Assembly: GCF_015644665.1 (NCBI RefSeq) | Contig: NZ_JADOBQ010000001.1 | Coordinates: forward strand, 1,116,001 to 1,180,000 | Length of the DNA: 64,000 nucleotides | Direction of reading: 5' to 3' | Source of the DNA: Roseobacter sp. MH60115 | GTDB lineage: Bacteria > Pseudomonadota > Alphaproteobacteria > Rhodobacterales > Rhodobacteraceae | Shown: positions 1 to 14,854 of the stretch, piece by piece | Layout: each line of letters begins with the position of its first letter | Position numbering within the stretch: the first letter of the stretch is position 1 | The notes under the pieces: generated by a model | Told to the model about the DNA's origin: nothing | Database searches by the model: none | What the model saw: the letters and a program-made list of their open reading frames with translations, nothing else | Translations under genes and position numbers: made by a program

Positions 1-1
1 C

Positions 2-2614
2 TTCGACGCCATCGGCCTGACCTCCGTGATCGAGCAGGTCGAGGCACGGCGCAAGCTGCGCAATGACATCGAGCAGGATGCAATGATCCAGATCCGGACC
101 CGCAATCTGCAGGCGGAGAAGGAAACACTGGCGATTGATCGGGCCTCCGAGGAGGCGCGGCTAGAGCAGGAGCGCGACATCGAGTTTCGGCGCGCCCAGC
201 AGCGGGCCGAACTGGCGCGCGAACGCTCGGAACGGGAAAAAGAGGGCGAGGAGGCGACGCTGATCAGCAAGGAGGCCATCGAGACCGCGCGGATCACCAA
301 TGAGGAAAGGGTCGCCGAGGCGCGCATCGCCTCGGAGCGCAAGATCCGCCAGCAGGAGATCGAGCGCCAGAAGGTCATCGACGAGGCCGAGATTGCCACG
401 CGCGAAGCGGTGGAGAAGGCACGGATCACCCAGGAAAAATCTCTGACCGAAACCCGGATCAAAACCGACAAGGACACGCAAGCGGCGGAGATTTCCGCCA
501 AGGAAGCCATCGAGAAAGCCCGCATTGCGCAGGATCGGACCTTGACCGAAGCGCGCATCGAGAAGGATCGCGAGACGCAGGCGCGCGAGATCGACCGCAA
601 GCGCCAGATCGAGGAGGCGGATATTGCCGCCAAGGAGGTCATTGAAAAGGCCCGCATCGCGCAGGAACGCGAGGTGACGGAGGCCCGGATTGCATTGGAG
701 CGCACGACTCGGGAGCAGGAGATCGCGCGCAATCTCGCGGTGGATGAGGCAACAATTGCCGCGCAGGAGGCTGCGGAAAAGCTGCGCATCACGCAGGAGA
801 CCACGATCAACGCCGAACGCATCGCCTCCAGCAAGGCGACCCGCGCGCTGGAGATCGAACGGCAGAAGGCGCTGGAAGAGGCCGAGATCGCCTCGCAGCA
901 AGCCACCGAAGCGGCCCGCATTGCACGTGAAAAGGCGCTGGCGGCGGAACGGATCGCTGCCGAACAGGACACCCGGGCGCGGGAGATCGAACGTCAGCGC
1001 GAGCTTGACGCACAGCAGATCGACGCCGCCGAGCAAACCTCGCGTGAGCGGATTGCGCAGGAGGAGCGGGTACGCAGCCTCGAGATCGCGCGCAACAAGG
1101 CCATCGACGAGGCCGAGATTGCCGCGCGCGAAGCGGTGGAGGCGCAGCGGATTGCCACCGAGGCCGCGACCGAACTGCGCCGGATCGAAAGCCAGGAGAG
1201 CACGCAGGAGCGCGAAGTTGCCCGCGCCAAGGCCATCGAAAGCGCCGAGATCACCAAGGGCGAAGCCATTGAGGCCACGCGCATCGCCCGCGAAAAGAAG
1301 CTGGCCGCCGAACGGATTGCCTATGAGCAGGACCTGCGCGAGCGCGAGATCGCGCGCAACCGCGCCGTGGATGTGGCCAATGTCGGCGCGCAGGAAGAGA
1401 TCGCTCAGGCCCGCATCCAGGAAGAAAAACGCACCCGCGCCGCCGATATCGCCAAGGAGGCGGAGCTGCGGTCGCGCGAGATCGAAAAGCAGGAAGCCAT
1501 TGAGGCGGCAGAGATTTCCTCGCGCCGGCTGGTCGATCAGCAGCGCATCGAGAAGGAGGCGGAGACAACCGCGGACAAGATTGCCCGGGACGAGCGTATC
1601 CGCACGCTGGAGATCGCCCGCAACAAGGCGATGGATGCGGCACAGATTGCCGCAGATGAGGCGACGGAGGCCGCTCGCGTGGCCAAGGAGAAGACCGTCG
1701 ATGCGGAGCGGATCGCCGCCGAGCAGGAGCTCGATGCCAGAAAGCTCGAACGCAAGAAGGCGCTGGAAGCGCTGGAAATCGCCCGCGTGCAATCCCTGCG
1801 CGAGGCCGAGATCGCCAGTCAGGAAGACGTGGAGCGGGCCAAGATCGCCAGCGAACGCGGGCTGGATGACGCCCGTATCGGACACCAGACCGAACGCCGC
1901 ACCCGCGAGATCGCCCGCGAGAAGGCCGTCGAGGAGGCGGCGATGGAAAAAGCCATCGCGCTCTATCAGAAATCCCTCGATGAAAGTGCCGCAGCGGTGG
2001 AGGCTGAAAACGCCCGGGCCCGCGCGCTGGAGGCAGCCGAGAAGGCCAAGACCGCCGCCGAAACCGAAAGTGCCAGCCGCGAAAAGACACTGGAGACCAT
2101 CCGCGCCGAGAAGGAGGCCGACCGCATGCGTGTCATCGCCGAGGCCGACAAGATCCGCAGCGCGGTGGAGGCCGAAGCCGCGCGGCTTATCAACGAGGCG
2201 GAAAATGTGCTCACCGATGGCGCCCGGCATTCGCTCTTCAAGCGCAAGATGCTGGAGCATGTGGAGGGCATCATCGCGGCCAGCGCCAAGCCGCTGGAAA
2301 ATGTCAGCGATATCAAGATCATGCAGCTGGGCGGGTCCGGCACGCAGGGGCTCGACTGGGCCAATGGCGGCGGCGGAGGTGGCGCAGGCAAGAGCGATGC
2401 GCCAAGCCCCACCGACGAGGTCATGAACTCGGCCCTGCGCTACCGCGTACAGGCGCCGTTCGTCGACAGTCTGATGCAGGAGATCGGCATCGACGGGGCC
2501 AACGTGAGCAAATCGGACATCTTCCGCAACGCCTCCGACATGACCCGGGCCACCTCCGAGATTGCGCGGGCGAAGAACGCCAAAACCCCGCGCAAGCCCG
2601 AGGAGAAGTCCTAG
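2..2614 (+). CDS. Flotillin-like coiled-coil protein (5' end outside window)
   Basis: The reading frame is open from the first base, so the N-terminal part, where an SPFH/band-7 domain would be expected, lies outside the window. The visible 870 residues begin with a flotillin-type linker, then run as uninterrupted charged helix: about 50 successive 11-residue units (nt 287-1936), each with an R/E-I or similar pair at fixed spacing. A classical C-terminal region follows (RMRVIAEADKIRSAVEAEA), then a Gly-rich stretch (GGGGGGAG) and a soluble tail. Flotillins are membrane-microdomain scaffolds that oligomerise through such regions; ordinary members have a much shorter repeat. Its stop directly abuts the next ATG, so it is co-transcribed with the SRPBCC and molybdenum hydroxylase genes. 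The flotillin call rests on the C-terminal half only. Long open frames in other phases and on the other strand here are by-products of the repeat. Confidence 0.8.
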   Translation, partial: FDAIGLTSVIEQVEARRKLRNDIEQDAMIQIRTRNLQAEKETLAIDRASEEARLEQERDIEFRRAQQRAELARERSEREKEGEEATLISKEAIETARITNEERVAEARIASERKIRQQEIERQKVIDEAEIATREAVEKARITQEKSLTETRIKTDKDTQAAEISAKEAIEKARIAQDRTLTEARIEKDRETQAREIDRKRQIEEADIAAKEVIEKARIAQEREVTEARIALERTTREQEIARNLAVDEATIAAQEAAEKLRITQETTINAERIASSKATRALEIERQKALEEAEIASQQATEAARIAREKALAAERIAAEQDTRAREIERQRELDAQQIDAAEQTSRERIAQEERVRSLEIARNKAIDEAEIAAREAVEAQRIATEAATELRRIESQESTQEREVARAKAIESAEITKGEAIEATRIAREKKLAAERIAYEQDLREREIARNRAVDVANVGAQEEIAQARIQEEKRTRAADIAKEAELRSREIEKQEAIEAAEISSRRLVDQQRIEKEAETTADKIARDERIRTLEIARNKAMDAAQIAADEATEAARVAKEKTVDAERIAAEQELDARKLERKKALEALEIARVQSLREAEIASQEDVERAKIASERGLDDARIGHQTERRTREIAREKAVEEAAMEKAIALYQKSLDESAAAVEAENARARALEAAEKAKTAAETESASREKTLETIRAEKEADRMRVIAEADKIRSAVEAEAARLINEAENVLTDGARHSLFKRKMLEHVEGIIAASAKPLENVSDIKIMQLGGSGTQGLDWANGGGGGGAGKSDAPSPTDEVMNSALRYRVQAPFVDSLMQEIGIDGANVSKSDIFRNASDMTRATSEIARAKNAKTPRKPEEKS

Positions 2615-3052
2615 ATGGCCCGCGTTTTCGTCTCCTCGGTGATTGGCGCCTCGGCGGAGCAGGTCTGGGAACGGGTGCGGGATTTCAACGCGCTGCCAAA
2701 ATGGCATCCGCGCATCCGCGACAGCCGTATCGAAGATGCGCTGCCCGCCGATAAAGTCGGCTGCATCCGGAACTTCAACCTGCAGAACGGCGACAACATC
2801 CGCGAGCAGCTGGTGGGGCTGAGCGATTACGACCTCTTCTACAGCTACACAATGCTCGACGGGCCGATGCCGCTTTGGGACTACATGGCCACGATCCGGT
2901 TCACCCCCGTGACAGATGGCGCGCGCTGTTTTGCCGAATGGTCGGCGGAGTTTTCCTGCGAACCCACGGATGAGGCGGATCTGGTCGACGGGATCGGGAC
3001 AAACGTGTTTCAGGGTGGCTTTGACGCGCTCAAACGGCATTTCGGAGGGTAG
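2615..3052 (+). CDS. SRPBCC family protein, CoxG-like (copy 1)
   Basis: The 145-residue protein has the START/polyketide-cyclase fold signature: an N-terminal strand, then VWERVRDFNALPKWHP, the usual helix-loop before the hydrophobic cavity, and a C-terminal helix ending in GFDALKRHF. No signal peptide is seen. Family members bind hydrophobic ligands; CoxG of carbon monoxide dehydrogenase loci is a member and links the enzyme to membrane quinone. ATG follows the flotillin stop with no gap. It is clearly paralogous to the next gene (shared RDFN, WHP, REQL, LSD, PVTDG and GFDA blocks). Placement just ahead of the molybdenum hydroxylase subunits suggests a CoxG-type role; this is inference. Confidence 0.85.
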   Translation: MARVFVSSVIGASAEQVWERVRDFNALPKWHPRIRDSRIEDALPADKVGCIRNFNLQNGDNIREQLVGLSDYDLFYSYTMLDGPMPLWDYMATIRFTPVTDGARCFAEWSAEFSCEPTDEADLVDGIGTNVFQGGFDALKRHFGG

Positions 3053-3093
3053 CGGATGACATCGGGATCGATGCAGGCCGGAGGACGGCGCCC

Positions 3094-3540
3094 ATGGTAA
3101 AGGTCTATCGCAGCACCATCCTGCCGGCCCCCATTGAGGCGGTCTGGGACATCCTGCGCGATTTCAACGGGCACGACCGCTGGCATCCGGCCATCGCGGA
3201 AAGTCAGATCGAACGTGGCAACCCGGCAGACAGGGTGAGTGCAGTGCGCCGCTTTCGGCTGACCGACGGGGCGGAGCTGCGCGAGCAACTGCTGACCCTG
3301 AGCGATATGGAGACGAGCTTTTCCTACTGCCTGCTTGAGACGCCGGTGCCCCTGCTGAACTACGTGGCCCACGTGCGGCTGGCCCCCGTGACCGATGGCG
3401 ACTGGACCTTCTGGGAGTGGGAAAGCCGGTTCGACACGCCCAAAGGGCAGGAAGACTCGCTGGCTGCCCTGGTGGGGGACGACATCTATCAGGCCGGGTT
3501 CGATGCGATCCGGGCCGAGATGGGATTGGAGGCCGCATGA
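3094..3540 (+). CDS. SRPBCC family protein, CoxG-like (copy 2)
   Basis: This 148-residue protein is a tandem paralogue of the preceding gene, with the same order of motifs: VWDILRDFNGHDRWHP, REQLLTLSD, APVTDG, and YQAGFDAI near the end. It is a START-like ligand-binding fold of the polyketide cyclase/dehydrase type, cytoplasmic. A 41-base spacer separates it from copy 1, and its TGA overlaps the ATG of the FAD subunit (ATGA), so translation is probably coupled. Two diverged copies side by side could form a heterodimer or bind different partners. The ligand is unknown. Confidence 0.85.
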   Translation: MVKVYRSTILPAPIEAVWDILRDFNGHDRWHPAIAESQIERGNPADRVSAVRRFRLTDGAELREQLLTLSDMETSFSYCLLETPVPLLNYVAHVRLAPVTDGDWTFWEWESRFDTPKGQEDSLAALVGDDIYQAGFDAIRAEMGLEAA

Positions 3541-4313
3541 CCGAGGTTCGGAGTTTTTCCACCAGCGCCGAGGCTGCGGGTGCAGAAGGCGCGATCCTGG
3601 GTGGCGGCACGCTGCTGATGCGGCAGGTGAACGAGGCGCCGCAGACCGTGCCGCGGCTGATCCGCATCACCGATCCGGCGCTGCGCGAGATCCGAGCCGA
3701 GGGGGACGGCCACCTGATCGGGGCGGGCGTGACCATGGCGCAGGTCATCGCGCATCCCGATCTCGCCGCTCTGGCCCCCGTCGCGCGCAGCATCGGCGGC
3801 CCGGCGCTGCGGAACATGGCGAGCGTCGGTGGCAACCTCTTTGCACCGCATCCCTATGGTGATTTCACCGTGGCGCTGCTGGCGCTGGAGGCGCAGGTCC
3901 TGTGGTCGGATGGGCGGCGCGAGGAGATCGAACGCTTTCTCTCGGCGCGGGATACGGCGCGCGGCGTGGTGACGGGCATCTGGGTGCCGCGGATCGCGCC
4001 GGGTGCGCTGCGCTACCGCAAGGTCAGCCGCACGCGGCCCAAAGGCGTGTCGGTGATGTCGATTGCCGCTTACCTGCCCAATGGTGGGTCCGCGCCGCGG
4101 ATCGCCTTCGGGGCGATGGGCCCCACGCCCTTGCGGGCCAAGGCGGCAGAATCTGCTCTGCAAGGCCGGGGGTTGACCGAAGAAAGCGTCACTGCCGCCG
4201 GGGCCGTTTGTTTGCAGGGGTTAAGCCCGGCGGACGATGCGCTGGCCTCCGCCTGGTACCGCAGCGAGGTCGCGCCCGTGCATCTGCGCCGCTGCTTGAT
4301 GGGAGAGACATGA
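3537..4313 (+). CDS. Molybdenum hydroxylase FAD-binding (medium) subunit, CoxM-type
   Basis: The 258-residue protein belongs to the xanthine dehydrogenase/CODH medium-subunit family, which passes electrons from the 2Fe-2S clusters through FAD to the final acceptor. It shows the FAD-binding GGGT at residues 22-25 and SVGGNL (canonical T/S-x-GGN) at 96-101, followed by the C-terminal CO_deh_flav_C-type segment (YRKVSRTRPKGVSVMS). I chose the ATG overlapping the previous stop; the open frame continues upstream but the family begins here. It overlaps the next gene by ATGATG, typical of this operon. Confidence 0.93.
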   Translation: MTEVRSFSTSAEAAGAEGAILGGGTLLMRQVNEAPQTVPRLIRITDPALREIRAEGDGHLIGAGVTMAQVIAHPDLAALAPVARSIGGPALRNMASVGGNLFAPHPYGDFTVALLALEAQVLWSDGRREEIERFLSARDTARGVVTGIWVPRIAPGALRYRKVSRTRPKGVSVMSIAAYLPNGGSAPRIAFGAMGPTPLRAKAAESALQGRGLTEESVTAAGAVCLQGLSPADDALASAWYRSEVAPVHLRRCLMGET

Positions 4314-4795
4314 TGCCCAAGACACCGCTGGCCTTCACGCTCAACGATGCCGAAACCGGCATCTTCGTGGATGACGGGCAGAACCTGTTGGAGGCGCTGC
4401 GGCGCGGGGCCGGGGACTTGTCGCCCAAATACGGCTGTGGCCAGGGCACATGTGGCGCCTGCACCGTGTTGATCGACGGGGTGCCGCATCTGAGCTGTCT
4501 GACGCTGGCCGAGGCCGTGGCGGGGCGCCGGATGGACACCACCGCCGGGCTTGCAGAGGGCGCGGAGCTGCACCCGCTGCAGCGCGCCTTCATGGAAGGG
4601 TTCGCCGCGCAATGCGGCTATTGCACCCCCGGCATGCTGATGGCGGCCAAGGCGCTGTTGGCAGCCAATCCACGCCCCAGCCGCGAGGAAGTGATTGAGG
4701 CCATCAGCGGCAACCTGTGCCGCTGCACCGGCTATGAGCCCATCGTGACGGCCATCCTTGAGGCCGCCGCGAAACTGCAGGGGCGCGCGGCATGA
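4310..4795 (+). CDS. Molybdenum hydroxylase 2Fe-2S (small) subunit, CoxS-type
   Basis: This 161-residue protein carries both expected iron-sulfur clusters. The plant ferredoxin-type cluster is at CGCGQGTCGAC with a later Cys (C43, C48, C51, C63). The helical C-terminal cluster is at CGYCTPG and CRCTGYEP. It relays electrons from the molybdopterin centre to FAD. Two in-frame ATGs (4310 and 4313) overlap the upstream stop; either could be used. Its TGA overlaps the ATG of the large-subunit gene. The family call is certain; the substrate is not indicated by this subunit. Confidence 0.95.
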   Translation: MMPKTPLAFTLNDAETGIFVDDGQNLLEALRRGAGDLSPKYGCGQGTCGACTVLIDGVPHLSCLTLAEAVAGRRMDTTAGLAEGAELHPLQRAFMEGFAAQCGYCTPGMLMAAKALLAANPRPSREEVIEAISGNLCRCTGYEPIVTAILEAAAKLQGRAA

Positions 4796-6615
4796 GCATC
4801 GAATTTCGCAAGGATCTCTTTGCCGATGAGCGCGACGACAATCTCAACGAGATCGGCAAGCCGAAGCTGCGCCAGGACATCGAAGGCCATGTGACCGGGC
4901 GCACCGCCTATTACGACGACCACCTCTTTGACGGTCTCCTGCACATGCGCTGTCTGCGCTCCCCGCATCACCACGCGCGGGTGCGGTCGGTGGATGTGGC
5001 AGAGGCAGAGCGCATGGCTGGGGTCAGGCGGGTGGTGCGGCCTGCGGATGTGCCCAGCAATCTCAACACGTTGCTGAGCCTCATCGGCTTTGGCAAGGAC
5101 GACGAACAGCTGCTGTCCGACCCGGTGGTGCGCTATCGCGGCGAGCCGATCCTGGCGATCATCGCCGATACCGAGGCCATTGCCCGTTCGGCCTGTGCCG
5201 CCGTGCGTGTCGATTGGGAGGTCTTGCCCCATGTGCTGGATGTGGAGGAGGCGATTGCGCCGGGTGCGCCGTCGGTGAACCCGGCCTATCCGGACAACAC
5301 CTTTACCTACGCGCCTTATGACCATGTGAAACTGCGATTTGGCGATGTGGCGGCAGGCTTTGCGCAGGCGGATCACATCGTCGAGGCCGAATACGAGATG
5401 TCGCCCATCGAGCAGGCCCCGATGGAGACTTGCGGAGCGATTGCGGCACCCGAAACCGCGGATCGGTTTGTTTGCCACACCGGCACGCAGGCGCTGTTTT
5501 TCTCGCTGGGCACCACCGCGAAGCTGCTGGATATCGCCTCCTCGCGGTTGCATTTCATCGGCGGTACGGTGGGGGGGGGATTTGGTGGCAAGGTCGACAG
5601 CATCACCGAGCCCATGGCCGTTTTGGGCGCGATGCTGACGGGCCGTCCGGTGAAGTTCCAGTGGGATCGCATGGAGGAAATGCAGGTCGGCGCGCCGCGC
5701 GGGGCGGAACGCTGGCGGATCAAGGACGGGGTGATGGCTGACGGGCGGATCGTGGCACGTCAGTTCACCGGGTTTTTCGATGCGGGGGCCTACACCCGGC
5801 TGAGTTCATATGCGGGGCACAAGGGGACGGGCCACCTGCCGGGGCCTTATACGATCCCCAATGTGGCCTCGAATGTGTTTTGCGTCTTCACCAACCGGAC
5901 GCCCGCGACGGCGATGCGCGGCTTTGGGATCACGGGTGTCGATTTTGCCCTGGAGTGCCATATGGACCGGGTGGCGGAGGCGGTGGGTGTCGATCCGGTC
6001 AGCCTGCGCATCCTCAACGCCTACCGGGACGGCGATATGAAGGCGCACCGGCGCAGTGCCAAGAATTGCGCGCTGGTGGAATGCTGCCAGGTGGCGGCGG
6101 GCAAGGCGGGCTGGGGGCTGAGCGCGCAGGATATGGCGGCGAGTTCTTTGACCGGTACGACGGCGGCGCGCGCTGCGATCCCCGAAACAGCGCTGGACGA
6201 CGAGGGACAGGAAGGCGCGCGCCGGGCCGGGCGCTGCGCCAGTGCCGATCCGGCACCCGGGACGCGGCGGCTGCCCGCAGGCGTTCAGGGGCGTGCGATG
6301 GCCGCGGTGCCAGTGCAGCGACCGGATATGCAGATCCTTGCCGAGCGGATTGGCCATAAGATCCCGGAGGGCGGCCCGGCCCCGGCGGCTGCGCCGACCG
6401 CGCCCGCCCGCCTGCCCAATGACCCAGCCGCCGCCGCGCCGGGTCCGGCACTGCCCGCCGCCGCCGCTGACCCGGCACCTGTGCCGCCCGCAGCCGCACC
6501 GACACCCCCGGCTGTCCCTGAACCGACGGCCCCCTATGCGCCGGAGAAGCCGTTCAGCCGCGGGGTCAAACGCCCGGGCGTATCGCGGTTTCTCTCCGGA
6601 TCAAGGAGGCGCTGA
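4792..6615 (+). CDS. Molybdenum hydroxylase large subunit, N-terminal half with Ala/Pro-rich tail
   Basis: The 607-residue protein contains the a/b-hammerhead domain (about residues 30-140) and the first molybdopterin-binding domain, with GGGFGGK at 261-267 and the TPATAMRGFG loop. It ends the family homology at about residue 431 (AAGKAGW). The last 176 residues are not part of the usual fold: a variable stretch, then an Ala/Pro-rich segment (about 518-585) and a basic end (SGSRRR). In ordinary enzymes the second molybdopterin domain would continue here; instead it is a separate downstream gene. The active-site loop lacks the Cys of true CO dehydrogenase (AYxCSFR), so CO is unlikely as substrate. 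An eight-G run at 5572-5579 lies in the frame but does not break it. Confidence 0.88.
   Translation: MSIEFRKDLFADERDDNLNEIGKPKLRQDIEGHVTGRTAYYDDHLFDGLLHMRCLRSPHHHARVRSVDVAEAERMAGVRRVVRPADVPSNLNTLLSLIGFGKDDEQLLSDPVVRYRGEPILAIIADTEAIARSACAAVRVDWEVLPHVLDVEEAIAPGAPSVNPAYPDNTFTYAPYDHVKLRFGDVAAGFAQADHIVEAEYEMSPIEQAPMETCGAIAAPETADRFVCHTGTQALFFSLGTTAKLLDIASSRLHFIGGTVGGGFGGKVDSITEPMAVLGAMLTGRPVKFQWDRMEEMQVGAPRGAERWRIKDGVMADGRIVARQFTGFFDAGAYTRLSSYAGHKGTGHLPGPYTIPNVASNVFCVFTNRTPATAMRGFGITGVDFALECHMDRVAEAVGVDPVSLRILNAYRDGDMKAHRRSAKNCALVECCQVAAGKAGWGLSAQDMAASSLTGTTAARAAIPETALDDEGQEGARRAGRCASADPAPGTRRLPAGVQGRAMAAVPVQRPDMQILAERIGHKIPEGGPAPAAAPTAPARLPNDPAAAAPGPALPAAAADPAPVPPAAAPTPPAVPEPTAPYAPEKPFSRGVKRPGVSRFLSGSRRR
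6603..6609 (+). promoter_or_regulatory. Ribosome binding site of the split large-subunit second half
   Basis: An AAGGAGG sequence lies inside the end of the upstream gene, five bases before ATG 6615. It shows that the second half of the large subunit has its own translation start, so the split is not simply a sequencing error. Confidence 0.75.
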
Positions 6616-7646
6616 TGACCCGACATTCAGGACGCGGCTTTGCCTGCATCAACTATCCCATCGGCATGAACCTCGGCGGCGATCCGGCGCAGGCGCTGGT
6701 GCATTCCACACCCGATGGCAAATTCATGGTCACGCTCTCGGCCATCGATCTTGGCCAGGGTATGAAATCCGTGACGCGGCAGATCGCGGCGGAGGCGCTT
6801 GGCGTGCCTTTGGCGGATGTCTATGTCGACACCGCCGATAGCGACACCGGCCCGCATGACATGGGCTCTTTCGCCTCGCGCGGCACGCACCGGGTGGGCA
6901 ATGCGGTGATCCGCGCGGCCTCCGAGGCGCGCGCGCAGATGATGGAGGCCGCGGCGGAAGAGCTGGAGGTCAGCGCGCAGGACCTCGATACCGATGGGGC
7001 GGGCAACATCCACGTCAAGGGCGCGCCCAGCCGTCAGATCACCGTCGCGGACACCGCGATTGCCGCGCAGTTCAAACAGGGGCGGACGCTGTCGGGGCGG
7101 GGGATCTTCCTGATCGAACCCTCGGGCGTGGACCCGGATACCGGCGAGATGAGCCCCGTGACCACCTATGCCCATGCCGCGCTCATCGTCGATCTCGACG
7201 TCGATGACGAGACCGGAGAGGTGGAGGTGACGCAGATCAACTCTGCCTATGAGGTGGGGCGCGCGCTCAATCCCAAGCTGGTCGAGCAACAGCTCATCGG
7301 TGGGGCCTGGATGGGGGTGAGCCACGCGCTCTATGAAACCACGGAACCCTACTATCCCGATCGCAGCCACGGGCCGGAGGATTTTAACACCTATTTGATG
7401 CCCGGACCCGGCGAGATCGTCCCGCATGACATCGCCGTGCTGGAACGCCCGGCGGCGGATGCGCCTTACGGCGGCAAGGGGCCAGGCGAGATGTGCGCCA
7501 ACCCGGTGCTGCCGGCGGTGGCGAATGCGGTTTACAATGCGGTGGGCGTGCGGGTCGACAAGCTGCCGATCACGCCCGAGAAGATCCTGCGCGGGATCCG
7601 GACCAATGGCGGCGCGCGGCCCGGTCCGCGCCGGCCGGGCGTCTGA
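6615..7646 (+). CDS. Molybdenum hydroxylase large subunit, C-terminal half
   Basis: This 343-residue protein is the second molybdopterin-binding domain (MoCoBD_2). It starts at the point where single-chain enzymes have GRGFACINYPxGMNLGGDP, continues through the IDLGQGMKSVTRQIAAEALG and SRGTHRVGNA cofactor-binding segments, and ends with GGKGPGEM. The Glu of that motif, residue 292, matches the catalytic base of the family. The ATG overlaps the previous TGA by one base and has a strong ribosome binding site. Together the two genes should make one heteromeric Mo subunit. Split Mo subunits are known, for example in clostridial nicotinate dehydrogenase. Confidence 0.92.
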   Translation: MTRHSGRGFACINYPIGMNLGGDPAQALVHSTPDGKFMVTLSAIDLGQGMKSVTRQIAAEALGVPLADVYVDTADSDTGPHDMGSFASRGTHRVGNAVIRAASEARAQMMEAAAEELEVSAQDLDTDGAGNIHVKGAPSRQITVADTAIAAQFKQGRTLSGRGIFLIEPSGVDPDTGEMSPVTTYAHAALIVDLDVDDETGEVEVTQINSAYEVGRALNPKLVEQQLIGGAWMGVSHALYETTEPYYPDRSHGPEDFNTYLMPGPGEIVPHDIAVLERPAADAPYGGKGPGEMCANPVLPAVANAVYNAVGVRVDKLPITPEKILRGIRTNGGARPGPRRPGV

Positions 7647-7651
7647 GCGGC

Positions 7652-8533
7652 GTGGCGGTGCAGTCGAATATCGCGGGGATCACCAGCCCGGAGACGCTGG
7701 GCGCGGCCCTGCGCGACGCGCAATACATCGCTGCTCCCGCGCTGGCCACCGCGTCCTATCTGGCCTTGGCCCTTGCCAAACCGCTGCTGCTGGAAGGCGC
7801 GCCGGGTGTGGGCAAGACTGAGGCCGCGAAGGCGCTTGGCGGCGTGCTGGGGCGCCAGGTGATCCGCCTGCAATGCTATGAGGGGATCGACGCGGCGGCG
7901 GCGCTTTATGAATGGAATTACCCGCGGCAGATGCTGTCGCTGCGCCAGATGGAGGTGGGCGAGACCAATCTCTACGGTCCGGATTTCCTGCTGGAACGGC
8001 CTTTGCTGACCGCCCTGCGCAACCCGGCCACCACGCTGCTGCTGATCGATGAGATCGACCGCGCGGATCAGGAATTCGAGGCCTTCCTGCTGGAGTTCCT
8101 GTCGGATTTCACCATTTCGATCCCCGAAACCGGCACCGAACGCGCCACGCGCCCGCCGGTGGTGGTGCTCACCTCCAACCGCACCCGCGATCTGCACGAA
8201 GCGCTGCGGCGGCGCTGCGTCTATCACTGGATCGACTATCCCGATCCGGCGCTGGAGGCGCAGATCGTGCAGATGCGCGCCTCGGCGGTGGTCGAGGCCA
8301 CGGCACAGGCGGTTGTGGCCTCGGTCGGGCTGATGCGGGCCGAACCGCTGGCCAAGCCGCCCGGCGTGGCCGAAACCGTAGAATGGGCCGAGGCGGCGAC
8401 GCTCCTGAACCTGCAGGGCGCGGCCTGGCCTGATGCTTTCCGCCGGTCCATCGGGGTGGCGATAAAGGATCACGATGATCTCGACTATCTGGAGCCGCAC
8501 CTTGACGCGTTCCTGCCGGGAGCGGCGGCATGA
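7652..8533 (+). CDS. MoxR-type AAA+ ATPase, CoxD-like
   Basis: The 293-residue protein has Walker A GAPGVGKTE, Walker B LLLIDEIDRAD, a sensor region (VVVLTSNRTRDLHEALRRRC, with the arginine finger run) and a C-terminal lid. CoxD-type MoxR ATPases mature the Mo centre of CO dehydrogenase, working with a VWA protein. I place the start at GTG 7652, five bases after the upstream stop; GTG 7658 is an alternative, and upstream starts would run back through the large-subunit gene. It overlaps the VWA gene by ATGA. The neighbourhood makes a maturation role for this hydroxylase likely. Confidence 0.9.
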   Translation: MAVQSNIAGITSPETLGAALRDAQYIAAPALATASYLALALAKPLLLEGAPGVGKTEAAKALGGVLGRQVIRLQCYEGIDAAAALYEWNYPRQMLSLRQMEVGETNLYGPDFLLERPLLTALRNPATTLLLIDEIDRADQEFEAFLLEFLSDFTISIPETGTERATRPPVVVLTSNRTRDLHEALRRRCVYHWIDYPDPALEAQIVQMRASAVVEATAQAVVASVGLMRAEPLAKPPGVAETVEWAEAATLLNLQGAAWPDAFRRSIGVAIKDHDDLDYLEPHLDAFLPGAAA

Positions 8534-9618
8534 CGCGCGCGCTGGAGCCCTTCTTTGCGCTGGCCGCTGCCTTGCGGCAGGCAGGTTTTGCCATCGCCCC
8601 CGACCAGACAGCGGGCTTCATTGCGGCCACGGGCGTGCTGGGCCCGCGCGGCATTGCCGATGTGCACGCCGCGGCGCTGGCGCTCTTTGCGATCCCGCCG
8701 GAGCGGCGCGCGGAATTCGATGCGATTTTCCAAATGATCCTTGCCGGTCAAAGCCTGGCCGCCGATGCGCCCGGCGAAGAGGATGACACCGAGGCGCTGG
8801 AGCCTGAGCAGACCACCACGGAGATCGAGTTGGACGAAGGCCCCGATCCCAGCGGCGCCGAGGCCACGGCGGCGGAGCGACTGGCCTCACGGGCGGTGAT
8901 GCCGACGGCGGCGACGGCGCTGAGCGCTTTTGAGCGGGAGGCTCCGAGACGGCTGCCCCGGCGGCTGTCCTACCGGCGCAGCCCCGCCCGGCGTGGCGAC
9001 CGCTTTGATCTGCGCCGCGCGCTGCGGCAGGCGGCCCGCACGGATGGCGATCTCTTTGCACTGCCACGCACGAGGCGCAAGACCCGGCAGCGGCGGATCC
9101 TTTGCCTGATCGATGTGTCGGGATCGATGAAAGAGCGCTCGGACGCGCTCTTGGCCTTTGCCCATGCGCTGGTGCAGGCCGCTGAGCGGGTGGAGGTGTT
9201 CACCTTGGGCACACAGCTGACGCGGATCACCGCAGGGCTCAGCCCCTCAGACCGGCCGGCGGCCATGGCCCGGGTCGGCCAGCAGATCGCCGATCTCGAT
9301 GGCGGCACCCGGCTGGGTGCGGCGCTCTCGGCGTTTCTGGCGGTGCCGCGCTATGCCGGTTTTGCCCGCGGGGCGCTGGTGCTGGTGTTGTCGGACGGGC
9401 TGGAGCGGGGCGATCCGCAGATGATGATTGACGCCACGGCGCGGCTGTCACGGCAGGCCTGGCGGCTGCACTGGTTGACCCCGCTTGCCGCTGACCCGGC
9501 GTTCCGGCCCGAGACGGCGGCGCTGACGGGCATCCTGCCCTGGATCGATGATCTGGGCGACGGCGCGAGCGTACAGGCCATCTGTGCGCATGTACTCAAC
9601 CTGGCGAGGGCGGCATGA
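8530..9618 (+). CDS. VWA domain protein, CoxE-like
   Basis: The 362-residue protein has an N-terminal helical region, an acidic middle section (EEDDTEALEPE) and a C-terminal von Willebrand A domain with the metal-binding DVSGSMKE motif and a later LVLSDGLERGDP segment. CoxE-like proteins pair with MoxR ATPases in maturation of molybdenum hydroxylases. It starts on an ATGA overlap with the ATPase gene and ends with the same overlap into the amidohydrolase, so the catabolic enzymes are translationally linked to the maturation genes. Confidence 0.9.
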   Translation: MTRALEPFFALAAALRQAGFAIAPDQTAGFIAATGVLGPRGIADVHAAALALFAIPPERRAEFDAIFQMILAGQSLAADAPGEEDDTEALEPEQTTTEIELDEGPDPSGAEATAAERLASRAVMPTAATALSAFEREAPRRLPRRLSYRRSPARRGDRFDLRRALRQAARTDGDLFALPRTRRKTRQRRILCLIDVSGSMKERSDALLAFAHALVQAAERVEVFTLGTQLTRITAGLSPSDRPAAMARVGQQIADLDGGTRLGAALSAFLAVPRYAGFARGALVLVLSDGLERGDPQMMIDATARLSRQAWRLHWLTPLAADPAFRPETAALTGILPWIDDLGDGASVQAICAHVLNLARAA

Positions 9619-10493
9619 TCGACGCACATCATCACATCTGGCGGCAGGCGGATCTGCCCTGGCTTCTGGGGCCGGAACAGCCGCGCATCTTTGGCTCCTA
9701 CGCGCCGATCAAACGCGACTATATGATCGAGGAATTCCTTGAGGACATCGACGGCACCGGCATCACCGGATCGGTCTATGTGCAGGCCAACTGGGCGCCG
9801 AACTGGGCACTGGACGAGGCGCGCTGGGTCGCGGCAGAAAGCGCGCGCAGCGGTTGGCCAATGGCGATTGTCGGTTTTGCGGATATGCGCAGCCGCCGGG
9901 CGGCAGAGGCGCTCAAGCGGCTGACGGATGTGCCGGGGGTCTGCGGGATACGGCACCAGTTCCACTGGCATGAAAACCCTGCCTACCGCTTCGCACCGGG
10001 CCCCGATCTCTGCGAGGAGGGGCAGGTGATGGAGAACATCGCCCGGCTGGGCGACCTGGGCCTCAGCTTCGATCTGCAGGTCTTCGCCAGCCAGATGCCG
10101 GGGGCGGTGAGCCTCGCGCAGGCCTGCCCGGAAGTTACCTTTGTGCTGCAACACGCGGGCATGCTGGAGGACCACTCCAAAGCCGGGCGCACGCTCTGGC
10201 TCACCGGCATGACCGCGCTTGCGGACTGCCCCAACGTGATCTGCAAGCTCTCCGGGCTCGGCACATTCATTCACCGCAATGACCCCGAACACATTACCGA
10301 TCAGGTCAAAACCGCACTCAAGCTCTTTGGCCCCGAGCGCTGCATGTTCGGCTCCAACTACCCGATCGAGAAACTCTGGACCTCTTACGCCGATCTCTTC
10401 GCCGCCTACATGGACGCGGTGCCGAAATCCCACCGAAACGCCGTCTTCGCGGGCACCGCCGCCCGCGTCTACGGCCTGAATAACCACACTTAA
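9615..10493 (+). CDS. Amidohydrolase family protein (COG3618/amidohydrolase 2)
   Basis: The 292-residue TIM-barrel hydrolase begins MIDAHHHIW, the metal-binding HxH of the family. It has VLQHAGM and CKLSGLG strands, then MFGSNYPIEKLW near the end, where the family usually has FGSDWP: here Asn replaces the usual Asp. Relatives hydrolyse lactones such as 2-pyrone-4,6-dicarboxylate or sugar lactones. In this operon it probably opens a ring made by the hydroxylase; the substrate is unknown. The FGSNYP change is worth noting because that Asp is the catalytic base in many members, although some COG3618 enzymes carry Asn. Confidence 0.85.
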   Translation: MIDAHHHIWRQADLPWLLGPEQPRIFGSYAPIKRDYMIEEFLEDIDGTGITGSVYVQANWAPNWALDEARWVAAESARSGWPMAIVGFADMRSRRAAEALKRLTDVPGVCGIRHQFHWHENPAYRFAPGPDLCEEGQVMENIARLGDLGLSFDLQVFASQMPGAVSLAQACPEVTFVLQHAGMLEDHSKAGRTLWLTGMTALADCPNVICKLSGLGTFIHRNDPEHITDQVKTALKLFGPERCMFGSNYPIEKLWTSYADLFAAYMDAVPKSHRNAVFAGTAARVYGLNNHT

Positions 10494-10506
10494 AGGGAGT
10501 GACCTG

Positions 10507-11355
10507 ATGGCTCTTCAAATTCACGTCTTGGACTATGGCGATATCGAACTGGAAACCTCGTTTCTGGTGCTCGGCCATGAATGCGGCCGCACGCGGCGGG
10601 TGCCGGTCTACGGGTTCCTGATCACCGGCGGCACCTATCCGGTGCTGGTGGACACGGGCTATCGCGACAATGCCATCATGGAATCCCTCGGCATGCGCGG
10701 GCTGCAGTTTCACGACAATATGATCGAAAACCAACTGGCCAAACACGGGCTGAAACTGGGCGATATCCGCTACATTCTGCACACCCATCTGCACATCGAC
10801 CATGCGGGCAAGGATGACCTTTTCCCGATGAACACAACCGTCTGCATCAATCGCCGCGAAATGGAGTTCTCCGTCTCCGGCATCATGTATCCGCAATACC
10901 CCAAGCCCGACATCAAACATCTGGTTGATCGCATCTACGAGCCCGAGGCGATGCGTTTCCTCGATCTGGAAATCACCGCCGCCGAAGAGATCATCCCCGG
11001 TGTGTGGTGCGAACTGGCGGGCGCCCATACCGAAGGCTCGATGAATGTGGTGGTGGAAACCGCCGAGGGGCTGGCCTGCATCTGCGGCGACGTGATCTAT
11101 GATTTCAACGACCAGATCGTCAACCACGTGCGGGTCAACAACCATATGGAGCCGCAGGTGACCGGCAATCACGCGGGCTCCAAGCGGGCCGAGAAGGGTG
11201 CGGTCAAGAAACTCTTGCAGAACTTCACCTTTCTGCTGCCGATCCACGACCGGCCTGCCAAGATCGAACATGCGCAGGTGGTCGGGCGCCTGGGCATGCA
11301 GGTGCCCGGGCCGATGACCGAAACCCTGCCGAGCCGCGACTGGTTTCCGGTCTAG
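10507..11355 (+). CDS. Metallo-beta-lactamase fold hydrolase, N-acyl homoserine lactonase-like
   Basis: The 282-residue protein carries the HTHLHIDHAG metal motif (HxHxDH), a later GAHTEGSM His and ICGDVIYDF Asp, the layout of AttM/AiiB-type lactonases and related enzymes. It has no signal peptide. AAAGGGAGTG (10493-10502) upstream gives a ribosome binding site. The family hydrolyses acyl-homoserine lactones, but position inside a catabolic operon with two other putative lactonases makes a pathway lactone at least as likely as a signal molecule. Confidence 0.85.
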   Translation: MALQIHVLDYGDIELETSFLVLGHECGRTRRVPVYGFLITGGTYPVLVDTGYRDNAIMESLGMRGLQFHDNMIENQLAKHGLKLGDIRYILHTHLHIDHAGKDDLFPMNTTVCINRREMEFSVSGIMYPQYPKPDIKHLVDRIYEPEAMRFLDLEITAAEEIIPGVWCELAGAHTEGSMNVVVETAEGLACICGDVIYDFNDQIVNHVRVNNHMEPQVTGNHAGSKRAEKGAVKKLLQNFTFLLPIHDRPAKIEHAQVVGRLGMQVPGPMTETLPSRDWFPV

Positions 11356-11391
11356 GCGGGCTTGACCGTCTGGCCGCGCAGGGAGGGACGC

Positions 11392-12984
11392 ATGGGACAT
11401 ATCGCAACCGACGACAGGTTTGCCGCACTGGTGGAGGCACATGCGCCGGTGCGTCAGATCGGCACCGGGTATATTTTCACCGAAGGGCCGCTCTGGCATC
11501 CGCAGGAGCAGACCCTGCTCTTTTCGGACATGCCGGGCGACGTGCGGCGCCAATACGTGCCCGGGCAGGGCGTGCGCGAGCTGGCGCGGCCCTCTAACAA
11601 GGGCAACGGCATGACCTACGATGCCGACCTCAACCTGCTGGTCTGCGAACATGCGACGTCTTCCGTGGTGCGGCTGGGCCGGGACGGCAGCCGCACGGTG
11701 CTGGCCAGTCATTTCGAGGGGCGCGAGCTGAACTCCCCCAATGACATCGTGATGCGGCGCGACGGGGCGATCTTCTTCACCGATCCGACTTACGGGCGGA
11801 TGGAGCATTTCGGCGTGCCGCGCCCGTTGCAGATGGGGTTTCAGGGCGTCTACATGCTGCCGCCCGGCCATCAGCCGGGGCAGGAGCCGGTGCTGGTCTC
11901 GGACCGCTACATGTTCAGCCAGCCCAACGGGCTTTGCCTGAGCCCGTGTGAGAAGTTCATCTGGGTCAATGACACCGATCAGGCCAATATTCGCAAATTC
12001 GATCTGGGCGCAGACGGGCGGCTGCAGAACGGCCGCATCTTTGCCAGCGGCATCCGCGAGGATCTCCGCCGTGGCGTGCCTGACGGCATGAAGTCGGACA
12101 AGGACGGCAACATCTATGTCACGGCCCCCGGCGGCATCTGGGTCTATGATTTCCACGGCATGAAGCTGGGCGAGATCCAATTGCCGGAGATGGCCGCGAA
12201 CCTGCATTGGGGCGATAGCGACTGGGGCACCCTCTACATCTGCGCGGAGACCTCCGTTTACGCGGTACGGACCCAGACGCAGGGCAAGATGGAGGCCTTC
12301 ATGACCGCGCAGCCCGCCGCTGTTAAACCGCCAGAGACCAGTCCTGCGCAGTCGGCGGATGTGCAGCCGCAGGCGGCGCTGGCGCCGATCACTGGCGCGC
12401 GCACGGCGCTGATCCTGCAGGACCTGCAAAACGACGTGATGATTGCGGGCGGGGCTTTTGCCGGCACCGGCAGCCCCGATCACGCGACCGCCCAGAATGT
12501 CGTTGCCAACGCCCGGCGTCTGGCCGAGGCTGCGCGCGCGAAGGGCGTGATGGTCATCCACGTCTGGATGGTCTGCGAGGAAGGGCATCCGCATCTGGCG
12601 CAGCACTGTGAGCTGATGCGCGGTCTGAAGGGCGAAAACGCGCTGGTCCGGGGCACCTGGGGCGTGGCCCCTGCCGCGGGGCTGGAGCCGCAGCCGGGCG
12701 ATCTGGTCGTGGAGAAGATGTTGATGAGCGCCTGGGAGACCTCGCGGCTGGAAAGCTACCTGCGGCATGGTGGGCGCGATACGATCATCAACACCGGCGC
12801 CTGGACCAACATGAGTGTCGAGCACACGGCGCGCACGGGGGCGGACAAGGGCTTTCACATGATCGTGCCCGAGGATGCCTGTTCGACGATGAACGCCGAT
12901 TGGCACCGCGCCTCCATTGACTATGCCATGCAGAATGTGGCGACTGTGACACGCACCGACGCGGTGATCGCAGCTTTGAGGTAG
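11392..12984 (+). CDS. SMP-30/gluconolactonase fused to isochorismatase-like domain
   Basis: The 530-residue protein joins two enzymes. Residues 1-295 are a six-bladed SMP-30/gluconolactonase propeller, with FTEGPLWHP, NSPNDIV and GMKSDKDGNIYVT metal-site segments. A Pro/Ala/Gln-rich linker (about 296-334) leads to an isochorismatase-like hydrolase (335-530) with LILQDLQNDV (Asp) and VVEKMLMSAW (Lys). The usual nucleophilic Cys position is Ser475 in GAWTNMSVEHT. I chose ATG 11392, preceded by GGGAGGG; an earlier in-frame start would add ten poorly conserved residues. The two domains presumably act on successive intermediates; the Cys loss suggests either a non-thiol reaction, as in true isochorismatases, or a binding role. 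Confidence 0.88.
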   Translation: MGHIATDDRFAALVEAHAPVRQIGTGYIFTEGPLWHPQEQTLLFSDMPGDVRRQYVPGQGVRELARPSNKGNGMTYDADLNLLVCEHATSSVVRLGRDGSRTVLASHFEGRELNSPNDIVMRRDGAIFFTDPTYGRMEHFGVPRPLQMGFQGVYMLPPGHQPGQEPVLVSDRYMFSQPNGLCLSPCEKFIWVNDTDQANIRKFDLGADGRLQNGRIFASGIREDLRRGVPDGMKSDKDGNIYVTAPGGIWVYDFHGMKLGEIQLPEMAANLHWGDSDWGTLYICAETSVYAVRTQTQGKMEAFMTAQPAAVKPPETSPAQSADVQPQAALAPITGARTALILQDLQNDVMIAGGAFAGTGSPDHATAQNVVANARRLAEAARAKGVMVIHVWMVCEEGHPHLAQHCELMRGLKGENALVRGTWGVAPAAGLEPQPGDLVVEKMLMSAWETSRLESYLRHGGRDTIINTGAWTNMSVEHTARTGADKGFHMIVPEDACSTMNADWHRASIDYAMQNVATVTRTDAVIAALR

Positions 12985-12988
12985 GGAT

Positions 12989-13717
12989 ATGAAACAGATT
13001 GCAGTTGTTACCGGCGGGGCCCAGGGGATTGGCCTCGCCTGTGCGCGCCAGTTCAAGGACGAAGGCAGTGCCGTGGCGCTTTGGGACAGTGATCCTGCCG
13101 CGCTGGAGGCCGCCAAGGCGGAGCTCGGACCAGAGACCGTGACCTGCGTGGTCGATGTGGCGGATTTCGCCAGTGTCGCGGCGGCGCAGAAAGAGACGGA
13201 AAAGACGCTGGGCGGGATCACGCAGCTGGTGAATTCCGCAGGGATTGCGGGGCCCAACGCGGTGATAGAAGAGTATCCGCTGGAGGACTGGGGCAAGATC
13301 CTCGACGTGAACCTCACCGGGTCCTTTCACGTGCTGCGCGCCGTGTTGCCGGGGATGAAGACCAGCGGCTACGGGCGTATTGTGCTTATCGCGTCCGTGG
13401 CGGGCAAGGAGGGCAACCCGATGGCCTCTGCCTATTCAGCCTCCAAGGCCGGGGTGATCGGGCTCACGAAATCCGCGGGCAAGGAATGCGCCACGCTCGA
13501 TATCGCGGTCAACTGCGTGACGCCCGCCGCCGCGAAGACGCGCATTTTCGACCAGATGAGCGAGGAGCACATTGCCTATATGCTGTCCAAGATCCCACGT
13601 GGCCGCTTTTTGCAGGTCGACGAGGCCGCCGCGATGATCTGCTGGCTCTGCAGCGCCGAGAACGGCTTTGCGACGGGCGGCGTCTTTGATCTGTCGGGCG
13701 GGCGCGCAACCTACTAG
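12989..13717 (+). CDS. SDR family oxidoreductase
   Basis: The 242-residue classical short-chain dehydrogenase has TGGAQGIG (cofactor), NSAG, the catalytic Ser in VLIASVAG and YSASK (Tyr/Lys). WDSDPAAL with Asp at the end of strand 2 favours NAD over NADP. It is the last gene of the long operon, four bases after the fusion hydrolase stop, and a hairpin terminator follows about 200 bases later. It likely oxidises a hydroxy acid after lactone opening; the substrate is unknown. Confidence 0.88.
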   Translation: MKQIAVVTGGAQGIGLACARQFKDEGSAVALWDSDPAALEAAKAELGPETVTCVVDVADFASVAAAQKETEKTLGGITQLVNSAGIAGPNAVIEEYPLEDWGKILDVNLTGSFHVLRAVLPGMKTSGYGRIVLIASVAGKEGNPMASAYSASKAGVIGLTKSAGKECATLDIAVNCVTPAAAKTRIFDQMSEEHIAYMLSKIPRGRFLQVDEAAAMICWLCSAENGFATGGVFDLSGGRATY

Positions 13718-13918
13718 GCGCTTGAAAAGACACAAGCGGACCATCCCGAGGGGATCAATCATCGTGTTTGGCGACGTTCCCGGCGCAAATACATGGCTCG
13801 TCTGCCCATCCCTGTGGGCTTTCAAAAGGCCCGGGCCGATGCCTTCGTGACACTGCGGGTCGCCATCACAACGGTCGGATGGACAGGATGACATGCGGCA
13901 CCTGCTGGGATCGATTGC

Positions 13919-13950
13919 AAAAGGCGCCCGGAAAAACTCCGGGCCCCTTT
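13919..13950. terminator. Bidirectional hairpin terminator
   Basis: AAAAGGCGCCCGGA, a short AAAAC loop and TCCGGGCCCCTTT form a GC stem with one mismatch, flanked by A and T tracts. It lies between convergent genes and can serve both the long + operon and the HxlR gene. Confidence 0.75.
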
Positions 13951-13968
13951 GCCGCCTCAAAGCAACGT

Positions 13969-14661
13969 CTACACCGCCGGGATCGGCGCGCGCTTTGCGT
14001 TGACGTAATGTGCCGGCGTAAGCCATGACTGCACGTTGCGCGTGAGGGCCGGATCCCCCTGAATGGACAGATCGCCGGACTTCATCGCGTCCTTATACGT
14101 GCGGTCCCCCATCCAGACATCATGCATCGTGCGGACCGAGCCGTCGAAATAGACGTTTACGTCCTTGCCCGGATCTTTGAGGCAGACCTGCGCCTTGCCG
14201 TTTTGAACCAGCAGCCACCAGTTGGGTTGTTCGGCCAGATCGGTAAAGCGAAACTTGATGACTGTCTCACCCCCAATCAGCTTTGAGGGATCGATGCTGC
14301 GTTCAAGACAGAACATCAGAAACTCGACGTCGAAATCCGAATCCAGAATCGTGTGTCTCGCCCAGAGCAGGGCCCATTCTCCCAGAGAGATGATAACCGG
14401 CAGCAGCGCTTTGCAGGCCTCGGTCGGGAAGTATTCATATCCGCGTTGTCCCGAAATTCTGCGGCGGGCGATCATGCCTTTGCCTTCCAGCATCTTCAGC
14501 CGGTTGGTCAGCAGCGCTGGAGAAATATCGCCAAGCCCGCGTTGCAGTTCGTTGAACCGCGTGCTGCCGAGAAGGATCTCGCGCACGATCAGAATGGTCC
14601 ACTTTTCACCGAGGATCTCGGTGGCTTTGGCGATAGGACAAAATTGGTTGTACTGTGTCAT
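13969..14661 (-). CDS. HxlR family transcriptional regulator with SCP2-like C-terminus
   Basis: The 230-residue protein starts with the HxlR winged helix (CPIAKATEILGEKWTILIVREI, then LLTNRLKMLEGKGMI). A C-terminal domain of about 100 residues resembles the sterol-carrier/SCP2-like region found in a subset of HxlR proteins (VCLKDPGKDVNVYFDGS). The first domain binds DNA as a dimer, often sensing electrophiles or redox changes. It is divergent from the methyltransferase-OsmC-monooxygenase cassette and is the obvious candidate regulator. Confidence 0.85.
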   Translation of the reverse strand: MTQYNQFCPIAKATEILGEKWTILIVREILLGSTRFNELQRGLGDISPALLTNRLKMLEGKGMIARRRISGQRGYEYFPTEACKALLPVIISLGEWALLWARHTILDSDFDVEFLMFCLERSIDPSKLIGGETVIKFRFTDLAEQPNWWLLVQNGKAQVCLKDPGKDVNVYFDGSVRTMHDVWMGDRTYKDAMKSGDLSIQGDPALTRNVQSWLTPAHYVNAKRAPIPAV

Positions 14662-14704
14662 GCCGCGCTCCTGACGGCGAGTATAACACCGTTACTTCAT
14701 TTTG

Positions 14705-14740
14705 TGTAGTTCGTTGCTTTGATTTCTGTAGTGCATCGCT
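14705..14740. promoter_or_regulatory. Candidate HxlR operator: 14-base direct repeat
   Basis: TGTAGTTCGTTGCT (14705-14718) and TGTAGTGCATCGCT (14727-14740) match at 11 of 14 positions and start 22 bases apart, about two helical turns. They sit in the 193-base divergent region between the HxlR gene and the methyltransferase gene. HxlR proteins are known to bind direct repeats; assignment here is inference. Confidence 0.4.
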
Positions 14741-14794
14741 ACTGTCCGTGAAGTATTCGCGCTGCTCCCATCTCCCTAAAACCTCGCTCATCCA

Positions 14795-14813
14795 GTCCGG
14801 TCACCATCCGGAC
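14795..14813 (+). repeat. Hairpin in methyltransferase leader
   Basis: GTCCGG, a seven-base loop and CCGGAC form a perfect 6-bp stem upstream of the methyltransferase start. A second small palindrome, TGCCCATTGGGCA (14828-14840), lies just before the ribosome binding site. Whether either controls expression is not visible from sequence. Confidence 0.35.
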
Positions 14814-14854
14814 AGCTCTTTTCAGCGATGCCCATTGGGCACGGGAGACCAAAG

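Follow-up and report, generated by a model that had tools for sequence, protein, structure and literature searches.

A conserved operon of Roseobacter sp. MH60115 unites a Liv-type importer, Tm-1-like proteins, an elongated flotillin and twin SRPBCC proteins with a split molybdenum hydroxylase

The window analyzed here, a stretch of 64,000 nucleotides of Roseobacter sp. MH60115 (bases 1116001–1180000 of the 1.2-Mb contig NZ_JADOBQ010000001.1), opens with a compact gene cluster coding for a flotillin, two SRPBCC proteins (SR1 and SR2), a four-subunit molybdenum (Mo) hydroxylase, maturation factors and several hydrolases. An initial annotation made from the sequence alone had described 13 consecutive plus-strand genes, from the flotillin to an SDR at 2–13717, that overlap or nearly abut, and this was borne out, since the intergenic gaps range from –4 to +41 nt when ATG 4310 is taken as the start of the Fe-S subunit (FeS) and GTG 7652 as that of MoxR. 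All predicted domains were found by Pfam, including those of the FAD, Fe-S and split Mo subunits and of the MoxR, VWA, amidohydrolase, MBL, SMP-30/isochorismatase and SDR proteins. The flotillin-type scaffold was also recognized, with the correction that its gene is cut by the window edge. The features are given below, L004 being the locus record that includes the upstream sequence.

2–2614, plus strand: flotillin, C-terminal 870 of 1068 amino acids (PF01145 and PF15975); gene start at L004:11408, 593 bp before the window
2615–3052, plus strand: SR1, SRPBCC protein of 145 amino acids (PF10604)
3094–3540, plus strand: SR2, SRPBCC protein of 148 amino acids and SR1 paralogue (PF10604; SR1/SR2 profile match)
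3537–4313, plus strand: FAD subunit (PF00941 and PF03450)
4310–4795, plus strand: [2Fe-2S] subunit, start ATG 4310 (PF00111 and PF01799)
4792–6615, plus strand: MoN, N-terminal part of the split molybdopterin subunit, 607 amino acids (PF01315 and PF02738; best solved match 3hrd_A)
6133–6612, plus strand: Pro/Ala-rich tail of MoN, residues 448–607, beyond the region matched in other Mo hydroxylases
6577–6612, plus strand: C-terminal peptide of MoN, GVSRFLSGSRRR, whose RRR end recurs in 72 of 73 MoN
6615–7646, plus strand: MoC, C-terminal part of the split molybdopterin subunit, 343 amino acids, with a GKGPGE motif (PF20256; best solved match 3hrd_B)
7652–8533, plus strand: MoxR-type AAA ATPase, putatively CoxD-like in role, GTG start assumed (PF07728)
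8530–9618, plus strand: VWA protein of the CoxE family (PF05762)
9615–10493, plus strand: amidohydrolase (PF04909; nearest curated model L-fucono-1,5-lactonase, NF052480, 117 bits against a cut-off of 400)
10507–11355, plus strand: MBL-fold hydrolase, lactonase-like (PF00753; best solved matches AHL lactonases and 4-pyridoxolactonase)
11392–12984, plus strand: SMP-30/gluconolactonase-like domain fused to an isochorismatase-like domain (PF08450 and PF00857)
12989–13717, plus strand: SDR, co-directional, outside the conserved core (PF00106)

The 13-gene run is the downstream part of a longer one that starts about 6.4 kb before the window, and the importer and Tm-1 genes of that upstream part were missed by the initial annotation. 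The full order is LivH-LivM-LivG-[LivF::UPF0261]-PEP_hydrolase-like-flotillin-SR1-SR2-FAD-FeS-MoN-MoC-MoxR-CoxE-amidohydrolase-MBL-[SMP30::isochorismatase], the five upstream genes being co-directional with the flotillin gene and separated by gaps of –4 to +3 nt. Both domains of the Tm-1 proteins are present on two neighbouring genes (PF06792, PF23189 and PF09370, all above cut-off): the UPF0261 domain (Tm1N) is fused to LivF, a difference from the known Tm-1 proteins such as that of plants, and the PEP_hydrolase-like TIM barrel (Tm1C, PF09370) follows; their solved relatives are 3WRY, 9MPY and 2P10. A simple scan of window positions 1–15000 for separate promoters and terminators between the genes revealed nothing beyond shuffle level, with five terminator-like sites against a shuffle mean of 9.3 and no plus-strand promoter-like site.

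The conservation of this arrangement was assessed by a scan of one genome per species, which yielded 354 stretches encoding a relative, the best 80 of which were kept; these are mostly alphaproteobacteria by label, with a few Granulosicoccus and Arenicellales, and include the culturable carriers Labrenzia sp. THAF82 and Aurantimonas coralicida. The 80 relatives share the gene order within the limits of their contigs, with few losses and insertions, ruling out a chance neighbourhood. Counting for each gene only the loci whose DNA extends to its expected position, Tm1N was present in 60/65, Tm1C in 63/65, flotillin in 64/65, SR1 and SR2 each in 68/70, FAD in 70/71, FeS in 72/73, MoN in 73/73 and MoC, which served as the search query, in 73/73 loci. 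The adjacent MoxR and CoxE genes were found in 74/74 and 72/72, the amidohydrolase in 71/71, and the MBL, SMP30 and isochorismatase components in 61/66, 59/62 and 57/60, respectively. A fusion joins SMP30 to isochorismatase in 58 of 60 loci, and LivF to UPF0261 in all 38 loci with LivF in view. The only flotillin-less locus (L055) carries a run of N at that position, which denotes an assembly gap, while the more distant loci L140 and L150 are devoid of amidohydrolase and MBL; in L072, L082, L084 and L091, MoN and MoC do not abut but are spaced by 254–1564 bp. The SDR, present in only 7 of 58 loci, was rejected as a core gene; the other genes travel as a unit. The case is strong that this cluster and the upstream Liv/Tm-1 genes constitute one operon serving one pathway, and the protein families give good grounds for predicting uptake and catabolism as its role.

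The hydroxylase is of the split-subunit, nicotinate dehydrogenase type, in which the Mo-binding chain is made as two polypeptides and FAD and [2Fe-2S] each have a subunit of their own. In none of the 76 measurable loci are MoN and MoC fused into one gene, which rules out a sequencing error as the cause of the split, and MoC retains GKGPGE. The MoxR-type AAA ATPase adjoins VWA_CoxE, as in a CoxD/CoxE maturation pair. None of the equivalog substrate models was above cut-off for the operon enzymes. The FAD, FeS and Mo subunits, together with MoxR, CoxE and SRPBCC proteins, resemble a cox cluster and could indicate a CO dehydrogenase or a CO-like respiratory dehydrogenase, a reading that is nevertheless extremely improbable. 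The CoxL models scored far below cut-off (NF040766, 159/950 bits; TIGR02416, 146/991 bits), the active-site loop reads PATAMRGFG, without the Cys motif of the CoxL active-site loop, and the importer and several hydrolases indicate an organic substrate. CO dehydrogenase identity was rejected on the model scores and the loop. Among the hydrolases, the MBL protein retains HTHLHIDH, whereas the isochorismatase-like domain carries, in at least 98% of 61 sequences, a Ser at the position of the catalytic Cys nucleophile of the family and is, because of this replacement, not a standard cysteine hydrolase.

The new feature of this enzyme is the MoN tail; the division of the Mo subunit is not new, because nicotinate dehydrogenase is split in the same way. 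In the 73 MoN of at least 500 amino acids (three shorter or broken ones were left out), the tail beyond position 447 spans 83–199 residues (median 150), its linker has a median Pro+Ala content of 0.41, and the protein ends in RRR in 72 cases and in RKR in one. No similar C-terminal peptide was found in any other open reading frame of at least 60 amino acids in the window, nor in any of 15 sister loci scanned. Tailless MoN of 446–460 amino acids were found in a group of five genomes (f10; 456–457 amino acids), in Sinorhizobium BG8 (457), in Nonomuraea (457) and in the haloarchaeon Salinigranum (446 as annotated). The three f10 loci read over 20 kb (L144–L146, alphaproteobacterial) have no flotillin, Tm1 or SR2, and no platform flotillin lies within about 14 kb of the hydroxylases of the other three, which are on plasmid records. 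In a Mo-subunit tree of 28 rows that included actinomycete and archaeal relatives, the 22 tailed rows formed one clade (support 100/99), with the tailless ones outside. With moderate confidence, this distribution points to a tail that would dock the hydroxylase to the platform made of Liv, Tm-1, flotillin and SRPBCC proteins. The location of the tail at the MoN/MoC junction could instead suggest a role in the assembly of the split subunits; however, six flotillin-free loci and nicotinate dehydrogenase (3HRD) have split Mo subunits without a tail, and the split therefore does not need one.

The full flotillin has Band_7/SPFH (PF01145) and flotillin C-terminal (PF15975) domains above cut-off, which place it among the SPFH flotillins, and it reached 29.5 of the 700 bits of the NCBIfam FloT equivalog, below cut-off. 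Its coiled coil of about 685 amino acids shows an 11-residue hydrophobic period and has no Pro in residues 206–890. Flotillin lengths were 800–1189 amino acids in 64 hydroxylase loci, 719–1155 in 11 others, 558–732 in 15 loci of a sister type described below (QOR-type) and 568–681 in 12 ordinary flotillins. In a flotillin tree of 54 rows, the sequences of tailed operons formed one clade nested within the QOR-type and the ordinary or platform flotillins.

It might be argued that this is an ordinary catabolic operon in which the flotillin, a general protein of membrane stress or rafts, is transcribed with the other genes for reasons of expression and has no physical link to the enzymes. Bacterial flotillins are common, a second, ordinary one is present in this genome, and the operon is accessory, with MoC carried by 5/19 same-genus, 25/394 family and 16/398 phylum-drawn genomes. 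The surveys make this explanation improbable. With an operon-type flotillin defined by 63% identity or more across its first 200 residues, 24 of the 25 family genomes with MoC have one, and the contig of the 25th (G081) ends before the flotillin position. Conversely, 24 of the 28 family genomes with an operon-type flotillin have MoC, so that this flotillin does not occur apart from the hydroxylase in most relatives; in G165 and G376 the contigs end inside MoN, in G040 inside the flotillin, and only G204 is truly without the hydroxylase. Moreover, among 376 class genomes, 33 gave 41 flotillin matches, and the 17 best all lie in a Tm1/SR operon (six with the hydroxylase, ten with an SR2::QOR fusion, one on a contig ending in SR2), in contrast to the 12 examined of the other 24, near none of which Tm1, SR or Mo genes were found.

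The genome G204, whose flotillin falls in the clade of the tailed operons, carries at its locus (L131) the order Liv-flotillin(65%)-SR1(38%)-SR2(31%)-MBL(75%)-ALDH (aldehyde dehydrogenase), a platform with neither Tm1C nor hydroxylase. Judged from the identities, its SRs have apparently diverged strongly after hydroxylase loss.

A platform without the hydroxylase was also found in five sister loci of the family (L133–L137), with flotillins 54–58% identical, where SR2 continues into a zinc-dehydrogenase-type (QOR) domain, in four by Pfam and in the fifth by tblastn. A search for this SR2::QOR fusion retrieved it from 11 of the 376 class genomes. In all 16 SR2::QOR loci, flotillin and SR1 directly precede the fusion; Tm1 is visible in 15 of them, the contig of L180 being short, and Liv in 14, since L137 and L180 are cut; L181 shows a rearranged order and an extra SR pair. 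Near some of these operons lie FAA hydrolases and Amidohydro_1 enzymes, fitting catabolism. As this sister lineage shows, the platform can do without the hydroxylase, so the flotillin is not reserved for molybdenum chemistry: it is specific to the platform and not to the Mo hydroxylase. The Liv/Tm-1/flotillin/twin-SRPBCC platform and the split-Mo hydroxylase appear to be two merged modules. In an SR tree of 87 rows with moderate support and few columns, the SR1 and SR2 groups each contained both operon types, and therefore the SR pair predates the split of the two operons. The lone SRPBCC of the f10 group was placed among the SR1 sequences of the hydroxylase operons, at low support and on few columns. 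The fusion indicates that SR2 serves a redox enzyme, and it does not distinguish between a quinone and a substrate as the ligand.

According to an alternative, the flotillin organizes the importer and the Tm-1 proteins rather than the hydroxylase, the SRPBCC pair binds the imported compound or an intermediate and passes it to the catabolic enzyme at hand, be it the Mo hydroxylase or a QOR-type reductase, and the MoN tail serves the subunit assembly considered above and not membrane docking. In favour of it, the Liv/Tm-1/flotillin/SR unit exists without the hydroxylase in the 16 QOR-type loci and, with divergent SRs and without Tm1C, in G204, and the best PDB match of the QOR half is the C=C reductase 2-haloacrylate reductase, ahead of quinone oxidoreductases. 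Besides the tailless split subunits, it conflicts with the retention of SR1 beside the hydroxylase in L144–L146 and L200 despite the missing importer and flotillin. This alternative is tentative and rather unlikely, although it is the most credible of those considered.

The preferred reading, a catabolic operon with a membrane platform composed of importer, docked Mo hydroxylase, SRPBCC carriers and hydrolases, is given about an even chance. A Liv-type ABC importer would take up a small organic compound, which the cytoplasmic four-subunit hydroxylase (FAD, FeS, MoN and MoC), matured by MoxR/CoxE, would oxidize; the amidohydrolase, the MBL protein and SMP30::isochorismatase would then process the oxidation product, probably a lactone or lactam. 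The hydroxylase would be held at the inner membrane by the flexible Pro/Ala-rich leash of MoN, whose basic C-terminal peptide may dock on the flotillin/SRPBCC platform, and the SRPBCC pair would carry a hydrophobic ligand, most likely the quinone electron acceptor and less likely the substrate or product. The role of quinone carriers is the weaker part of this proposal. The membrane-docked oxidation foreseen by the initial annotation gains indirect support from the MoN tail and the SR2::QOR fusion. A more elaborate version, of low probability, supposes that the elongated flotillin would form a tall, closed, membrane-bound cage, a compartment walled by protein and capped by the membrane that would enclose the hydroxylase and its SRPBCC carriers of quinone or substrate beside the importer, with the MoN peptide as cargo tag; on this view, the recruitment of the hydroxylase to the platform would have coincided with the origin of the tag, the lengthening of the flotillin coil and the release of SR2 from its fused redox enzyme.

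Several observations weigh against the docked-hydroxylase proposal or parts of it. The association of tail and platform is one evolutionary event, and therefore the co-occurrence is suggestive and not proof. In a first tree, which used a distant outgroup with a branch length of 10, the tailless sequences lay inside the tailed ones, implying tail loss in the f10 group, a scenario that was rejected in favour of the later, careful tree. G204 keeps flotillin and SRs without the hydroxylase, and no SRPBCC was found in the stretch of Nonomuraea examined, so the SRs are not essential for this enzyme type. Two SRPBCC proteins were indeed encoded, as the initial annotation had claimed (PF10604, with weak matches to PF03364), but its CoxG label did not hold: neither SR1 nor SR2 matched PF06240, the three PF06240 matches of this genome all lie on other contigs, and an hhalign profile comparison of SR1/SR2 with two CoxG proteins, of low power, gave 1.4%. 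The SR2 ligand could be a substrate, because 2-haloacrylate reductase is the nearest match of the QOR half, which falls below the cut-off of the NADPH:quinone reductase model NF008024 (257.7 and 251.7 against a cut-off of 348 bits). The lactone or lactam idea rests on lactonase-like names scoring below their cut-offs. Finally, Oligotropha coxG mutants still grow on CO (PMC4240915, in the text available), and a CoxG-like protein that anchors an archaeal dehydrogenase is described, in the available part of PMC11962113, as not required for quinone reduction.

By its composition, this is an SRPBCC-associated molybdenum hydroxylase system, and known relatives exist for each of its parts. The nicotinate dehydrogenase of Eubacterium barkeri (NdhFSLM, 3HRD) likewise has four subunits with two Mo-binding polypeptides (PMC10331938), and it supplied the best solved matches of MoN and MoC; however, 3hrd_A, of 425 amino acids, ends at the domain boundary without a tail, and the accessible text mentions none of the flotillin, SRPBCC and MoxR/CoxE partners found here. 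The CO dehydrogenase cluster coxMSL-DEFG also combines a Mo hydroxylase, an AAA ATPase, a VWA protein and an SRPBCC-type protein, CoxG, which, according to the portion available of PMC4240915, recruits the enzyme or is thought to recruit it to the membrane. The present operon differs from it in its Mo loop, in having PF10604 and not PF06240, and in its two SRPBCC proteins, flotillin, importer, Tm-1 proteins and hydrolases. In the archaeal glycerol-3-phosphate dehydrogenase (Saci_2031-2032), a small SRPBCC gene adjoins that of a soluble quinone-linked dehydrogenase and its product brings the enzyme to the membrane (PMC11962113); that dehydrogenase is unrelated, with one SRPBCC and, in the available part of that paper, no mention of a flotillin, as opposed to a Mo hydroxylase with two SRPBCC proteins and a flotillin here. 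SRPBCC-type proteins as menaquinone carriers are mentioned, by citation, in the accessible part of PMC13240472. The human Flotillin1/2 cages share the SPFH and flotillin C-terminal domains and a coil rich in Ala and Glu, their wall helix having 186 residues in the excerpt available of PMC11260169 against about 685 in the coil of the present protein, which is moreover encoded inside a catabolic operon.

Mo hydroxylases with a separate SRPBCC component are known. Membrane anchoring has been proposed for such a component, in work cited in the available part of PMC11962113. In the open literature searched, as distinct from subscription papers, no paper was found linking flotillin with Mo hydroxylases or Tm-1 proteins with such an operon, and neither the combination itself nor the tagged tail, the long flotillin coil or the swapping of redox modules on a shared platform was found there. 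If the proposal is correct, a bacterial flotillin, from a family of mostly vague function, would acquire a concrete job in organizing one defined oxidation pathway, and the conserved MoN tail would offer a single handle for the tethering of a soluble molybdenum enzyme to a membrane scaffold. In the sister loci an SR2-fused QOR-type enzyme takes the place of the hydroxylase, which suggests that SRPBCC proteins may be general go-betweens for redox enzymes at the membrane, beyond CO dehydrogenase, and the Tm-1 pair (UPF0261 and PEP_hydrolase-like) is placed in a catabolic setting.

Some neighbouring genes and related loci deserve mention. Ahead of LivH lie genes coding for AraC, an ALDH resembling alpha-ketoglutaric semialdehyde dehydrogenase below the model cut-off (506/770 bits), a 384-amino-acid protein (L004:1839-2993) with no Pfam match, and a urea/amino-acid-type binding protein; the positional counterpart of the 384-amino-acid protein in Yoonia (38% identity) carries the annotation of an iron-containing alcohol dehydrogenase. 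Downstream, the operon is bordered by window 13969–14661 on the minus strand, which encodes an HxlR-type regulator with an SCP2/alkyl-sulfatase-C-like sterol-carrier domain. Near one sister operon, L172:16885-18615 on the minus strand encodes a PEP_hydrolase-like (Tm1C) domain fused to an AAA-lid-like region and a Fis-type helix-turn-helix, a putative regulator whose TIM barrel may sense a small molecule, and a distant Mo hydroxylase at L179:1152-3900, with identities of about 30% for MoN and MoC and 47% for FeS, adjoins an SR2::QOR operon on the opposite strand. In Yoonia sp. SS1-5 (L201:27498-30681), the whole operon is carried on a 336-kb plasmid record and is followed by SDR and FAA-hydrolase genes and three tyrosine recombinases, which suggests mobility of the operon. 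The haloarchaeal plasmid L198 carries a split Mo hydroxylase with cyclase-family and SRPBCC genes, suggesting that this enzyme type has spread across domains of life.

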